DNA of 34,040 nt from NCBI GenBank assembly GCA_001593935.1, contig LUCE01000026.1:1-34040 (forward strand), read 5' to 3'. Both the position numbers and the translations under genes were made by a program. The stretch's first letter is position 1. The number at the start of each line of letters is the position of its first letter. The notes below the pieces were generated by a model that searched no databases, was not told where the DNA came from, and saw only the letters and a program-made list of their open reading frames with translations. This document shows positions 11,227 through 24,703 of the stretch, in pieces. This DNA is from Candidatus Bathyarchaeota archaeon B26-2. GTDB taxonomy: Archaea; Thermoproteota; Bathyarchaeia; Bathyarchaeales; B26-1.

Positions 11227-12969
11227 TCACTTGTGAGCGAAGTATACCGTGAACCCTTCATCTATGCGGTCGACTCGGACGAAGCCGAAACGTTCAAACT
11301 GGACGATGTCCCCGACATGGACGCCTTTGAAGTTCTCCTCGACGAGCCCAGAAGTAATCGAGCCGTCGGGCATAACAACGTCGCATGGAAGTCCGCTTCC
11401 ATCCGGTATCCAATGGATGAGGGGGGCTCCCAGCCTCCTAGCCTCCTCGTGAGGCCGGCTGTGGAAGACCCCGATTGCACGTTTTCTATCTAGGGACTCA
11501 ACCTTGAAGTTGAAGAGCCCTATGAGACGTATAACGGCGCCTCTCTTGAGAAGGTTCAAGTCCGAATCTGAGATCAAGATCGATGCCTCGCCGTTGATGG
11601 GCTCTATGCAGAGACGGCGTGAACCGACCTCCGGACGGTTGGGATGTAACGGAACCTCGGCCGTGAAGCGTTGTGGAACCTCTCTAACTAAGAGCTTAAA
11701 GGGGTTCTTCACGAAGAAGTATCTCTTAGCCTCGGGATCAACGACCTTCCGGTTGTGGGCGTAAAGGTTCTCCCAGCTCAGAACTATGTCTGCCGATCTG
11801 GGCCCGATCTCGATTATTAGGCGCCTTATGGCTTCAGGCCTTATTCCACGCCTCCTTAAGGCCGCAAACGTGGCGAGTCTGGGGTCGTCCCAGCCCTCAT
11901 AGAGCCCGCTTCTGACATCTCGAAGGATCTTAGATTTGCTCAAAGAGGCTCCGACAATCTTGAGCCTTCCATAATGGATGGCCTCCGGATACTCCCATCC
12001 GAGGTGTCGGTAGAGATACTCTTGTCTCAGTTGGTTGCTTAGGTGTTCCTTCCCCCTTATTATGTGGGTTACCCCCAACAAATGGTCGTCGATGCCGCTT
12101 GCGAAGTTGTAGAGGGGCCAAACCCGGTATTTATCTCCAACCCTCGGGTGTGGATACCTTCTTGTATCGATTATTCTGAAGGCCGGCCAGTCCCTAATAG
12201 CTGGGTTGGGGTGGTTCAAGTCAGTCTTCACCCTCATGACCGCTTCGCCCTCTCCGTAGGATCCATCGAGCATCTTCTCCCATCGAGAGAGGCTCTCGCT
12301 AGGTTCTAGTCCCCTACAGGAGCACGGCTCCTTGAGCAAAATTTTGGCCCTAAACTCTTCAGGTGTGCATGTGCAGATGTAGGCCTTACCATCTTCAAGA
12401 AGCCTCTCAGCATACTCGTAATAAATCTGAACTCTATCACTCTGGATGTATTCTTCGTCCCACTTACACCCAAGCCAGAGGAGGTCCTCCCTAATCATCT
12501 CGAAGAACTGGAGGGCCGACCTCTTCAACCGGGGGTCGGTATCTTCGAATCGAAGTAGGAATCTGCCCTTGTATATGCGGGCGTACTCATGGCTTAAGAT
12601 GATGGCCCTAGCGGAGCCGAGGTGTAAGGCGCAGTCGGGGTTCGGCGCGAACCTCGTGACGACTCGGTCGTACTTCTCAACGTTCGGGAGTGGAGGTAAC
12701 GCCCTTTCTTTCTCCTCCTTCTCTACAGCCTCAGCTAGAGCCTGGGGCCACCTCTCCTCAACTATCCTTCTCTGTTCAGCCGGGGTGAGATCATTAACAC
12801 TTTGGACAACGTTCTTCACGACCGGCATGAGGTCTCTAACGTTCACCCTCAGCTCCGGCCGCACAGCTAGAAGTCTACCGAGAACGGGTTTAACCTTAGC
12901 CTTTCCGTCATGCTTTATAGCGTTCAGAAGCGCTATCCTCAGAATCTCTTCCTCGATCTTTTCGTTCAT
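11227..12969 (-). CDS. gltX: Glutamyl-tRNA synthetase (archaeal class I GluRS)
   Basis: About 580 residues. The class I ATP site is seen as ALHLGSAR (HIGH motif) and ASLSKSKI (KMSKS motif), with RFAPNPD before the first and RFEDTDPR after it. The C-terminal half is the beta-barrel anticodon-binding type shared with GlnRS, as usual for archaeal GluRS. Paired CTC and CSC motifs in the inserted domain may bind zinc. Many archaea use this enzyme to charge both tRNA-Glu and tRNA-Gln (the latter corrected by GatDE); a GlnRS role cannot be excluded by eye. The ATG at 12969 fits the family's N-terminus (MNEKIEEEILRIALLNAIKH) better than the GTG at 13002. It is the last gene of the superoperon. Confidence 0.95.
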   Translation of the reverse strand: MNEKIEEEILRIALLNAIKHDGKAKVKPVLGRLLAVRPELRVNVRDLMPVVKNVVQSVNDLTPAEQRRIVEERWPQALAEAVEKEEKERALPPLPNVEKYDRVVTRFAPNPDCALHLGSARAIILSHEYARIYKGRFLLRFEDTDPRLKRSALQFFEMIREDLLWLGCKWDEEYIQSDRVQIYYEYAERLLEDGKAYICTCTPEEFRAKILLKEPCSCRGLEPSESLSRWEKMLDGSYGEGEAVMRVKTDLNHPNPAIRDWPAFRIIDTRRYPHPRVGDKYRVWPLYNFASGIDDHLLGVTHIIRGKEHLSNQLRQEYLYRHLGWEYPEAIHYGRLKIVGASLSKSKILRDVRSGLYEGWDDPRLATFAALRRRGIRPEAIRRLIIEIGPRSADIVLSWENLYAHNRKVVDPEAKRYFFVKNPFKLLVREVPQRFTAEVPLHPNRPEVGSRRLCIEPINGEASILISDSDLNLLKRGAVIRLIGLFNFKVESLDRKRAIGVFHSRPHEEARRLGAPLIHWIPDGSGLPCDVVMPDGSITSGLVEENFKGVHVGDIVQFERFGFVRVDRIDEGFTVYFAHK

Positions 12970-13027
12970 CTCTAGGTCTGTCCCTCGCAAGACTTGAGGC
13001 ACAGTAGCTGTGCTCTTAGGTGAGAGC

Positions 13028-14008
13028 CTATATGCTTCTCTCGATGAGGAAGTCCGCGAGTGCTGAGAGCATCTCCTTGGCTTCTGAGGGCGGCATAACC
13101 CTGTCGACCTCGCTCCAGCTCTCCTTCCTCAACCTGAGAGCTAGTTCCTTCGCGTATTCGATAGCGCCGTATCTTTTAATTATCTCTATCGCCTCTTCTC
13201 GGAGGTTCTTATCTCTAGTATGCATCTTCAGAATCTCCAGGAGACGGCTCCTATCTTCAGAGGTCGCCCTCTTAAGCGTATATACGACCATTAGAGACCG
13301 TTTTCCCTCAGTTATGTCCATTCCCACCCCGCCCTTCCCCTCCGCGAACTTGACACCGGTTAAGTCCAGAACATCGTCCTGTATCTGGAAGGCTACACCG
13401 ATCGACTCAGCGAACCGTCCAACCTTCTCGACAACTCCGTCTCCAGCTCCAGCCAAGACGGCTCCAATCTCAGCCGCAACTCTAGCCAAGGTACCAGTCT
13501 TGTAGGTGCACATCTGGAGATACTGTTCCACAGTGGCGTCGTCGGCGTTCGCCAGTCCCCTATGCCACGCCAAGTCCATCGCCTGCCCCAGACAAAGGTT
13601 GACCATACCCCTCACGAAGGCTTCGTATATCCTGTTAGCCTGCTCTAACGTGATCTTCCCTTTGTTCTCTCTCAGGACGAGCATGGGGATGAAGTACATG
13701 GCTTGAGACAAGTTCACTGAGATGTCAAGGCCGAAGATTCGGTACGTGCAAGGTTTTCCCCTCCTTAGGGCGGAGGAGTCCTCGATGTCGTCGGCTATGA
13801 GCGTCCCGTTGTGGATGACCTCTGGAATTATCGCGAAGTCCATAAACTCTTCTGGTTCTCCTCCTAAAGCCTCGCAGACTAGAAGTAGGAGGGCGGGCCT
13901 CCACCTTTTCCCTCCCCTATCGAGGAAGTCCCATAGGGGTTCAGATATAGCCTTCGTTAAAGCCTCGAGGTCAAGCTGATATGAAGGAGAGTCCAGCTTG
14001 AAGATCAA
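13028..14008 (-). CDS. idsA: Prenyl diphosphate synthase (GGPP synthase type), long frame
   Basis: 326 residues from a TTG at 14008. GGKRWRPALL is at 32-41. The two aspartate-rich Mg-binding motifs are DDIED (73-77) and QDDVLDLTG (from 210). The enzyme condenses IPP with allylic diphosphates to make geranylgeranyl diphosphate for archaeal membrane lipids. The TTG start (with AAGGA seven bases upstream) is doubtful: the frame stays open upstream to 14065, encoding IEKYIPRAFKDSS, which looks like genuine protein, and no better start lies there. The natural start is probably the ATG at 14126, in another frame (see next entry). It lies between fni and gltX in the isoprenoid part of the superoperon. 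Confidence 0.9.
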   Translation of the reverse strand: MIFKLDSPSYQLDLEALTKAISEPLWDFLDRGGKRWRPALLLLVCEALGGEPEEFMDFAIIPEVIHNGTLIADDIEDSSALRRGKPCTYRIFGLDISVNLSQAMYFIPMLVLRENKGKITLEQANRIYEAFVRGMVNLCLGQAMDLAWHRGLANADDATVEQYLQMCTYKTGTLARVAAEIGAVLAGAGDGVVEKVGRFAESIGVAFQIQDDVLDLTGVKFAEGKGGVGMDITEGKRSLMVVYTLKRATSEDRSRLLEILKMHTRDKNLREEAIEIIKRYGAIEYAKELALRLRKESWSEVDRVMPPSEAKEMLSALADFLIERSI

Positions 14009-14042
14009 GGAAGAATCCTTAAAGGCTCTAGGTATATACTTC

Positions 14043-14126
14043 TCAATCCTTTCTAGCGGTCTTTTCTAAATAAGCCTTCAAATCCGCGTATACTCCCCTC
14101 TCGGCTATGCCATAACGCCGACTCAT
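14043..14126 (-). CDS. Likely true 5' end of idsA, separated by a +1 frameshift
   Basis: A 27-codon frame (MSRRYGIAERGVYADLKAYL, then EKTARKD, then TGA) begins with an ATG that overlaps the fni stop as ATGA and is preceded at 7-8 bases by a strong ribosome binding site, GGAGGAGG. Its end overlaps the upstream open part of the idsA frame between 14065 and 14043. A one-base forward shift there gives ...YLEKTARK joined to IEKYIPRAFKDSS and on into idsA. Prenyl synthases normally have such a helix before the GGKRxRP motif. It may be a sequencing error, a real mutation rescued by the internal TTG, or programmed frameshifting at GAT-TGA. Alternatively it is a stand-alone 27-residue peptide. Confidence 0.6.
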   Translation of the reverse strand: MSRRYGIAERGVYADLKAYLEKTARKD

Positions 14127-15226
14127 CTATTAAGCCTCCTCCTCGCATATAGATCGGGCTCGAAGCCCCTGGCCCGAAGCCACTCGGCCGTCCTTCCTGT
14201 GAGGACGAGTGGGACTTCCTTCAGCCTCTTCACCGAGTCCGCGCCTACAAGGAACATTATGTTCCTCAGCTGGTCGATCATGTTGTTCAGCAGCCGCTCA
14301 ACTTTGTCAGCCCCCTTAAGGGCTGGAGCCAAAACTGGTGAGGCGAACCCAACTAGGCTGGCTCCTAGAGCTATGGCCTTCGCGGCGTCGTTGCCAGATC
14401 GTATGCCGCCGGAGGCTATGACTGGTATGCTGACCGACTGAACAGTCTCGACTAGGCTGACGGCCGTCGGTATCCCCCAGTCCCAGAGGAGCTCACCGAG
14501 CCTCTGGGACGAGTCGTTACCTCGCTTCTTCGCTCTGTGATACTCGACGGCTGCCCAGCTCGTTCCTCCCGCCCCAGAGACATCTATCCCTGCAACACCA
14601 GCAGCTTCAAGCATACCGGCATCCTCCGCGGCTATCCCCGCCCCGGTCTCCTTCACTATAACCGGCACCTCGAGACCCTTAGCAACCTCCCCTATACTCT
14701 CGAGTATACCTTTGTAGGTGGTCTCCCCTTCCGGTTGAACAGCCTCTTGAAGCGGGTTCAAGTGTATCGCTAAGGCGTCGGCCTCGATCATCTCGACGGC
14801 CCGCCTCAAGTCTTTGAGGCTGTACCCCCTTACGAGTTGAGGGCCGCCTATATTGGCTATGAGGAAGGCGTTCGGCGCCTTCTCTCTTGCGATCGTGAAA
14901 GTCGCCTCTAGAGTTGGATCTTCTAGGGCAGCCCTCTGACTTCCGACGCCCATGCCTAAGCCGAGCCTCTCAACGGCCTCCGCTATCGAGGCGTTTACTT
15001 TAAGAGCCTTAGGGGTACCCCCCGTTATTCCCTCGACGATGAGAGGGGCCGAGAACTCATGGTTGAACAGTCGAGTTGAAAGATTTATCTCGTCCCGGTT
15101 AATCTCCGGTAAGGCCCTATGCACAAGAAAGATCTCTTCGAACCCCGTGGTTATCCTCCTAGCCTTGACCTCCTCCTCTAGGCAGATCCTCAAGTGGTCC
15201 GACTTCCTCTCTTCCGTGGGGCCCAT
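14123..15226 (-). CDS. fni: Type 2 isopentenyl-diphosphate delta-isomerase (FMN-dependent)
   Basis: About 367 residues. Features include the N-terminal RKSDHLRICLEEEV, APLIVEGITGGTPKALKVN, LGMGVGSQRAALEDP, IDVSGAGGTSWAAVEYHR, and the FMN-phosphate region IPVIASGGIRSGNDAAKAIALGA. It interconverts IPP and DMAPP using reduced FMN. The frame extends to a GTG at 15280, but ATG 15226 fits the family's N-terminus; it has AAGG close upstream and leaves a 16-base gap after the IPK stop. It is translationally coupled to the next gene by an ATGA overlap at 14126-14123. In several archaea an RNase J gene follows here; it is absent. Confidence 0.93.
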   Translation of the reverse strand: MGPTEERKSDHLRICLEEEVKARRITTGFEEIFLVHRALPEINRDEINLSTRLFNHEFSAPLIVEGITGGTPKALKVNASIAEAVERLGLGMGVGSQRAALEDPTLEATFTIAREKAPNAFLIANIGGPQLVRGYSLKDLRRAVEMIEADALAIHLNPLQEAVQPEGETTYKGILESIGEVAKGLEVPVIVKETGAGIAAEDAGMLEAAGVAGIDVSGAGGTSWAAVEYHRAKKRGNDSSQRLGELLWDWGIPTAVSLVETVQSVSIPVIASGGIRSGNDAAKAIALGASLVGFASPVLAPALKGADKVERLLNNMIDQLRNIMFLVGADSVKRLKEVPLVLTGRTAEWLRARGFEPDLYARRRLNR

Positions 15227-15242
15227 CAGAAGCCTTGCCTCT

Positions 15243-16058
15243 TTATTCTTTCGTGATCTCCGTTCCAATTCCGGGTTCACCCTTTAAGGCTTTGTAGACG
15301 TTTCTTGGTTTCAACGCGTTCACTATCAAGGCTTTGGCACCACGCTTGATTGGGGGTATCAACTCTAAAATCTTGCCCATCATCCCGCCTGTTACGTCTG
15401 GAGAGGACGAGCCTCTTATCCCACGCCATATCTCTTCGAGGTCCTTAATTGTTAGGTGCTGTATAAGCCTAGCTGAAGGGTTGAGTTTCGGGTCTTCTGT
15501 GTAGAGACCGTCGACGTCTACGCCCATAATGATGCGTTCAGCCCCAAGCCTAACGGCCAGCAAGGCCGCTATCTGGTCCCCAGAGAGGATGGCGAACCCC
15601 TTCTCTAGGTCCAAGGTCACATCTCCATAGAGGATGGGGACCAAGCCGAGGTCGATAGCCATCCTTATAGGCTTATCCTCGAGGCCATACACCCGACCCA
15701 TCCTTGTAACCGTGAATGATGAGGGCGGCATCCCGAAGGCTGGGATCCCCTCCTCGATTAGAGCCTCGACGACGAGCTTATTGAGGGAAACCATGGCTTC
15801 ATGTGTCTTTGAGAAGCCTACCAACTGAGATGGGTCTCTGAAGCCCTCTTTAAGCCTATACTTCTCAGCTAATGGATGGCCGAAGCTTCCGCCTCCATGA
15901 ATCAAGATGAGAGGGGAGACCTCAGCCTCTGAGACCTCTCGAGCTAGCCGTCTTATGACAGACATGCTGGGGGTTAAAGGCGTTCCTTTCTCTGTTATAG
16001 CTGAGCCTCCCAGTTTGAGTATGGTCGGCTTCCTTTCAGCGTTATCTCTGTTCCTCAA
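15243..16058 (-). CDS. ipk: Isopentenyl phosphate kinase
   Basis: 271 residues of the amino acid kinase fold. LKLGGSAIT at 15-23 is the ATP-phosphate loop, and IHGGGSFGHPLAEKY at 53-67 has the His (residue 61) that is diagnostic for IPK over other kinases of the fold. Also seen are LSGDQIAALLAVRLGAERI, GVDVDGLYTEDPKLNP, and VTGGMMGKI. It phosphorylates isopentenyl phosphate to IPP, the last step of the archaeal mevalonate pathways. The only plausible start is a TTG at 16058, which overlaps the mevalonate kinase end by 17 bases; GAGGA abuts it, so translation is probably coupled. Confidence 0.94.
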   Translation of the reverse strand: MRNRDNAERKPTILKLGGSAITEKGTPLTPSMSVIRRLAREVSEAEVSPLILIHGGGSFGHPLAEKYRLKEGFRDPSQLVGFSKTHEAMVSLNKLVVEALIEEGIPAFGMPPSSFTVTRMGRVYGLEDKPIRMAIDLGLVPILYGDVTLDLEKGFAILSGDQIAALLAVRLGAERIIMGVDVDGLYTEDPKLNPSARLIQHLTIKDLEEIWRGIRGSSSPDVTGGMMGKILELIPPIKRGAKALIVNALKPRNVYKALKGEPGIGTEITKE

Positions 16059-20162: not shown

Positions 20163-20183
20163 TCTATGCCGCCTCCACAACAC

Positions 20184-20609
20184 CTACCTATAACTCTTCT
20201 GTTTCCTTGCTCTAGCTCCTGGCCCCCCAAACTTCTTCGGTTCCTTCCTCCGAGGATCACCGGCGATCATCGTTCGGTCATACTTGTAGAAGATTGTCTT
20301 TAAGTGGGAGCTCTTCGTCCACTTCAGAAGAGCCCTCGCGATAGCTATCCTAGCGGCCTCAGCTTGTCCCATGAAGCCGCCTCCTTTCACGTTGACTTTT
20401 ATGTCGATCTGCTTCCACACGTCTTCACCAGCCATCCTGAGGGGCTCCATGATCTTCAATCTAGCGATTTCAGGCTCGTATATCTCGAGGGGTATCCTAT
20501 TTATACGGATCCTCCCCTTGCCCGGTTTTATCGTTGCCTTGGCTATCGCTGTTTTACGTTTCCCGCTTACAACAAGGACCTTCTTTGTGGATGAACTTGC
20601 GCTACTCAT
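20184..20609 (-). CDS. rps9: Ribosomal protein S9 (uS9)
   Basis: 141 residues from ATG 20609, which has GGTGAT eight bases upstream; the GTG at 20621 would overlap L13. [42 protein letters not shown] and the C-terminal [20 protein letters not shown] with basic tail KSYR are standard. The tail reaches the P-site tRNA in ribosomes. Confidence 0.97.
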
Positions 20610-20613
20610 CTCA

Positions 20614-21051
20614 TCAATCACCTACCGGTTTCCAGCCAATCTCCTTCGCTAAGTCCGAGAGTCTGATGTATGGGCATCGGAGGCTCCTCGAGTCGGCTTC
20701 TGGAATTCTCTCCTTCTCCCTATCCTTAAACTCTTCAGGGAGTCCTATGAAGACCCTAAGCCTCTTGAGTGCCTCTCTTCCCCGAGGCTTCTTCCGCGGA
20801 AGCATACCTCTGACGGCCCTCTTAACGATCTCGTCGGGCCTCCTAGGGTGGTGAGGACCCTTTCCCGGATGGCCGATCTCAAGGAATTTCTTCGCTTCTC
20901 TAAGTATGCTCAACCTCTTTCCCGAGATTACAGTCTTCTCGGCATTGACTATGATTATTCTCTCACCGTTCAGCAGCCTCTTCGCCACTACACTGGCAAG
21001 CCTCCCCAAGATGAGGCCGTTCGCGTCGATCACGGACTCCCTCAAACCCAT
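20614..21051 (-). CDS. rpl13: Ribosomal protein L13 (uL13)
   Basis: 145 residues from ATG 21051, which follows GGGTGAG at about eight bases; an upstream GTG at 21063 overlaps the L18e stop as [25 protein letters not shown], the phosphate-site-like region [19 protein letters not shown], and [22 protein letters not shown] are typical. It lies four bases before the S9 start. Confidence 0.96.
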
Positions 21052-23842: not shown

Positions 23843-23881
23843 GGTGGTGTCCCATCTAACCTCTTAGGGGAGGCGTCCGGT

Positions 23882-24703
23882 TTGGTTAGACTCAAGCTAG
23901 GGATGATCGCCAGACTTAAACCAGACCTAGAGAAGGAACTTGACAAGGTTCAAAGGCTAGGTTTCCCAACGTGCCAAGTTGTCTGTTGGGATATGAACCT
24001 ATACAGAGCCAACGTAGCGCGTAGGCTCCGAAGAGCCGCTGAGGACCGTGGCATAGAGGTGACGACCCTCTGGTCCGGGTTGCCCGGGAGGTATGTGTGG
24101 AACTTCATTGAAGGCCCTAGTACTATAGGGTTGGTGCCTCCTCAGATGCGGGAGGTTCGGTTGAAGGCCTTGAGGAAAGCATCTGACTTCGCACGTATAA
24201 TCGGGGTGCCGAGCATCACGACTCATGTAGGCTTCATACCGGAGAACCCTCTCGACCCTGTCTACGTCTCCCTCATCGAGGTCTTGAAAGACGTAGCCAG
24301 ATTCTGCGGTGAAAACGGTCAAGAATTCTGGTTTGAGACTGGTCAAGAGACTCCCATAACTCTGCTTAGGACCATAGAGGACATCGGCGCAGAGAACCTC
24401 GGCGTGAACCTCGACCCCGCTAACCTCCTCATGTATGGAAAAGCCAACCCTGTGGACGCTCTGGACATAATTGGGACTTATGTTCGGGGAGTACACGCTA
24501 AGGACGGCGAATACCCGACCAACGGGCGTGAACTCGGAAAGGAGAAACCTATAGGGAAAGGCCGTGTAAACTTCCCAGCCCTCATATCGAAACTTAAAGC
24601 GTTGGGTTACAGTGGCGCCCTAACAATCGAACGTGAGATAAGTGGGCCTCAACAGATCGAGGATATAAAGAGGGCTAAGGCTTACCTAGAAACCCTATGT
24701 TGA
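23882..24703 (+). CDS. Xylose-isomerase-like TIM barrel (sugar phosphate isomerase/epimerase family)
   Basis: 273 residues, a full-length member of the AP-endonuclease-2/xylose-isomerase-like superfamily. The four expected divalent-metal ligands can be placed: Glu152 (FWFETGQET), Asp178 (NLDPANLL), His205 (RGVHAKDGEYP) and Glu250 (TIERE). The GVHAKD signature and C-terminal YSGALTIERE are typical of ketose epimerases and inosose-type enzymes. The substrate is unknown. It starts with TTG at 23882, supported by GGGGAGG eight bases upstream and by no better codon nearby. It is a single-gene unit on the plus strand, 65 bases before the DUF72 gene's first ATG. Confidence 0.85.
   Translation: MVRLKLGMIARLKPDLEKELDKVQRLGFPTCQVVCWDMNLYRANVARRLRRAAEDRGIEVTTLWSGLPGRYVWNFIEGPSTIGLVPPQMREVRLKALRKASDFARIIGVPSITTHVGFIPENPLDPVYVSLIEVLKDVARFCGENGQEFWFETGQETPITLLRTIEDIGAENLGVNLDPANLLMYGKANPVDALDIIGTYVRGVHAKDGEYPTNGRELGKEKPIGKGRVNFPALISKLKALGYSGALTIEREISGPQQIEDIKRAKAYLETLC

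Follow-up and report, generated by a model that had tools for sequence, protein, structure and literature searches.

The reading frame of idsA, the prenyl synthase gene in the middle of the window (the whole 34,040-nucleotide stretch analysed here, which lies on contig C3 of a source MAG of 73 contigs and 1.89 Mb, G000), is broken close to its 5' end, and the break is probably a local assembly artefact in an otherwise ordinary gene. From the frame break, the 11-base difference from a close relative, the intact homologues and the defects of this class, with and without N, elsewhere in the source MAG and in the relative, all of which are observed, we infer that the junction is most likely an assembly join and not a mutation. 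We propose that idsA in this organism is a geranylgeranyl/short-chain prenyl diphosphate synthase gene of the ordinary kind, read in a single frame from the ATG at 14126 after fni, and that two assembly pieces may have been joined at 14054/14053 with the gap estimated as zero, so that no N was written and about 11 bases were dropped, breaking the frame. Unless reads show the deletion to be real, there is most likely nothing new in this feature.

The ATG of the upstream 27-codon ORF (14126-14124) lies on the fni stop (ATGA), with GAGGAGG 8 nt upstream; the ORF encodes MSRRYGIAERGVYADLKAYLEKTARKD and ends with TGA at 14045-14043. The idsA frame opens at 14065, bounded by TAG at 14068-14066, shares 23 bases with the 27-codon ORF and has as its first ATG, GTG or TTG the TTG at 14008. 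The initial annotation had described this arrangement from the letters alone, and its account holds base for base: the Shine-Dalgarno-preceded ATG on the fni stop with 27 codons to TGA, the frame open from 14065, the first start at 14008 and the 23-base overlap, as well as the positions of an A4 run (14065-14062) and of GAT-TGA (14048-14043).

Table 1. Features around idsA (window positions) and frame breaks in the source MAG (G000) and in B26-1 (G001)
Feature	Location	Strand	Observation
27-codon ORF	14043..14126	-	5' end of idsA (first half of N-terminal helix); homology to the B26-1 IdsA N-terminus and 42 distinct homologues
idsA junction (14054/14053)	14053..14054	-	G000 break without N; 11 bases lost versus B26-1 in alignments; placement uncertain to within a few bases
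Open idsA frame	13028..14065	-	prenyl synthase, PF00348, ERIEKYIPR to C-terminus; sole copy found in genome
TTG	14006..14008	-	first common start codon remaining in idsA frame; AAGGA 7 nt upstream
fni	14123..15280	-	type 2 isopentenyl-diphosphate isomerase, intact; TIGR02151 above cut-off
gltX	11227..13002	-	archaeal glutamate--tRNA ligase, intact, downstream neighbour of idsA; TIGR00463 above cut-off
hdrA	L064:6207-6212		G000 break without N; 14 bases lost versus B26-1
1971-aa ORF	L173:10842		G000 break without N; 11 bases lost versus B26-1
nfo			G000 break without N; 1 base lost versus B26-1
proA	L064:9636-9644		G000 break at N-run; 5 N where B26-1 has about 10 bases
hdrB	L064:3597-3613		G000 break at N-run; 11 N where B26-1 has about 18 bases
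thrB			G000 break at N-run; 3 N where B26-1 has about 14 bases
Tartronate-semialdehyde reductase			G000 break at N-run; 14 N where B26-1 has about 28 bases
rpsI (ribosomal protein S9)	L086:639		G001 break; 4 bases lost
TIM-barrel gene	L086:4474		G001 break; 4 bases lost
aroC	L152:7163		G001 break; 8 bases lost, in two gaps

That the upstream codons are the true idsA N-terminus in another frame, as had been suggested, agrees with the homologues and with the alignment to B26-1. A match to the idsA product is encoded by 58 of the 61 genomes searched, the best matches in an uninterrupted frame. At 51 homologous loci, representing 42 distinct N-termini, no stop interrupts the frame over at least 14 codons upstream of IEKYIPR, where it follows the pattern xIExFLEExAxxIDxxIEKYIPR; a start codon is present in this upstream frame in every homologue examined, and the window alone has none. 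No homologue starts near FKLDSPSY; in all of them one frame reaches further upstream and takes in IEKYIPR and the helix, and the joined gene stands. When the stop-free 10-mers from all six frames of the window were ranked against the homologous N-terminus profile, DLKAYLEKTA from the 27-codon frame came first of 44,491; the gene is therefore truly split, as the initial annotation held. An independent small gene upstream of idsA is ruled out by the same match. Relative to B26-1, pN/pS is about 0.08 over 10 codons of the upstream piece (few sites), 0.25 over the 15 codons before the TTG and 0.11 for the rest of idsA, and both pieces flanking the break look to be still constrained.

The nature of the break emerges from the Bathyarchaeota MAG B26-1, the nearest relative among the genomes compared, which carries its idsA locus on L032, is 89% identical and aligns cleanly to the window on both sides of the break. 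In the best alignment the window shows a gap of 11 bases between GCTA (14054) and GAAAGGATTGAG (from 14053); at the gap B26-1 reads TAKAVDERIEKYIPR, and the window reads TA and then ERIEKYIPR in the shifted frame. The missing codons, for K-A-V-D, fall midway along the first helix (residues 16-19 of B26-1). Because -11 equals +1 modulo 3, the frame moves in the same way as it would after the gain of one base, and it was a single extra base, with the A4 run or GAT-TGA as slip sites, that had been proposed; the alignment shows 11 bases absent from the window instead. A single shift does join the two frames, as claimed, but the joined product would still be about 4 residues short of its homologues. 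The same shortfall, together with the 11-base length of the gap, makes a simple one-base sequencing error, with a surplus base at the A4 run or close to GATTGA, most improbable, even if deleting one base would join the frames.

Defects of this kind recur in both assemblies. We compared about 736 kb of the source MAG with 1.14 Mb of B26-1 and counted frame changes from HSPs; about 309 ORFs in each direction were matched in the other genome, with 15 frame changes each way, a comparison that rests on one congeneric MAG, itself imperfect. Some of these changes reflect divergence at gene ends or ORFs that are spurious, and several lie inside well-conserved genes (Table 1). Four breaks in the source MAG coincide with N-runs that would show the mechanism, namely scaffold gaps sized, by comparison with B26-1, 5-14 bases too small. 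Two further N-runs in B26-1 are undersized by 12 and 13, and one exception is oversized (L059:19763, 15 N versus 12), its flank alignment being incomplete. At least part of this class of breaks must be artefact, because a working archaeon cannot plausibly lose ribosomal protein S9. In the window itself the orthologues of the rpsI and TIM-barrel genes that are broken in B26-1 are intact (20183-20621, minus strand, and 23881-24703, plus strand). Three of the broken genes, hdrB, proA and hdrA, sit on a single contig of the source MAG (C10, L064), two at short N-runs and hdrA at a site without N. The 1971-aa ORF (L081:13599-19514, minus strand, with its orthologue in L173) is 87-92% conserved between the two MAGs and has no Pfam match.

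The deficits of 5-14 bases at these N-runs span a range that includes the 11 bases missing from idsA. As in the local assembly and scaffold-join errors known from MAGs, a conserved single-copy gene is broken that is intact in close relatives, no compensating paralogue was found in the genome, and the same class of defect is found elsewhere in the source MAG, tied to scaffold joins by undersized N-runs. Chen et al. described how MAGs carry local assembly errors and scaffold-gap problems and how uncurated ones propagate incorrect gene sequences (PMC7111523). Antonov et al. expected that singleton frameshifts with BLASTp validation reflect sequencing errors and not genuine indels (PMC3711429); idsA presents this situation. 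What counts against an artefact is that the idsA junction, unlike the N-run breaks of the same MAG, carries no N, and that a natural 11-base deletion would look identical.

Such a deletion, recent and real in the population, is the alternative that deserves most weight, and we consider it unlikely. The 27-codon peptide would then terminate, and IdsA would be made from the internal TTG at 14008 or another weak start, lacking its first helix, or some cells would keep an intact allele. The deposited sequence does read this way, AAGGA lies 7 nt before the TTG, and the catalytic core, including both Asp-rich regions, lies 3' of it. The deletion would, however, damage the sole idsA match in the genome, in which no second intact copy was found. 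AlphaFold2 modelling of B26-1 IdsA (mean pLDDT 90.5) shows residues 3-25 as one helix, with pLDDT of about 86-93 in this block; a start at TTG 14008 would remove all of this predicted helix along with the conserved IEKYIPR segment. Moreover, several comparable breaks in the MAG sit at N-runs, and artefact is therefore the more usual cause here.

Programmed or tolerated +1 ribosomal frameshifting within the 23-base overlap, giving one IdsA about 4 residues short in helix A, appears very remote. The loss of 11 bases plus the skipping of one would take out four whole codons and keep the frame, a shortening by about one turn of the helix, and the TGA follows GAT, with GAAAGG before it. Against this, the split recurs in none of the 42 distinct homologues, all of which have a single open frame with neither the split nor the shift site conserved; a search for a stimulatory RNA structure near the overlap found none, the RNA folding no better than shuffles (z = 0.16 over 151 nt); the N-free breaks elsewhere in the MAG have, by eye, no common sequence; and archaeal precedent is scant. 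According to a review (PMC8211752), the sole cellular archaeal case is the -1 shift in fucA1, frameshifting of a magnesium chelatase is presumed, and +1 shifting is reported only from a haloarchaeal virus. The likeness to the programmed -1 frameshifting of Saccharolobus fucA1 is that two overlapping ORFs encode the N- and C-terminal parts of one enzyme; in idsA, however, the shift runs in the opposite direction, there is no heptanucleotide slip site or stimulatory structure, and the 11 missing bases explain the split. Genome-wide stop recoding was likewise set aside: the in-frame stops inspected against B26-1 fall largely in spurious-looking or antisense ORFs or in divergent ends, and TGA, TAG and TAA are all present.

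Among the three causes listed by the initial annotation it is thus the first, an assembly error, that is favoured, and a tolerated mutation with a TTG start and programmed frameshifting are disfavoured. That the deletion is real and that this lineage of Bathyarchaeia relies on a +1 ribosomal shift across the 23-base overlap, or on the internal TTG, to produce its essential prenyl synthase seems highly unlikely; were the break real, an archaeal gene that is apparently essential would be expressed across a frame break, a rare occurrence. The practical lesson is one of caution: in the source MAG and in B26-1, core genes frequently have broken frames, which often mark scaffold joins with an underestimated gap size, and such breaks should not, without read support, be taken for pseudogenes, pathway loss or recoding.

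The gene lies in a minus-strand row of isoprenoid genes encoding a Memo-like protein, mevalonate kinase, isopentenyl phosphate kinase, fni and idsA, followed by gltX. The ATG on the fni stop differs in its use between the two MAGs. In B26-1 it opens only a 7-codon mini-ORF (L032:2919-2942) that ends one base before the idsA ATG (2944); in the window the same fni-overlapping ATGA (14126) is the start of idsA itself, whose N-terminus is thereby longer than in B26-1.

The idsA product is a member of the Pfam family Polyprenyl synthetase (PF00348; 218.3 bits, gathering threshold 27), and its closest solved sequence is 1wy0. This match and the gene order of mevalonate kinase, isopentenyl phosphate kinase, fni and idsA are those of an archaeal short-chain isoprenyl diphosphate synthase (IdsA/GGPP synthase), to which the product is homologous as judged by sequence, a comparison that does not settle the chain length of the prenyl diphosphate made. 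Unlike the IdsA/GGPP synthase equivalogs, it has a 5' end broken in the contig and scores below the NCBIfam cut-offs of NF040698 (IdsA_Meth; 226.6 versus 468) and NF041003 (GGPP_syn; 172.5 versus 500). Because the IdsA homologue falls far below both cut-offs, the short-chain prenyl synthases of Bathyarchaeia seem to form a branch of their own.
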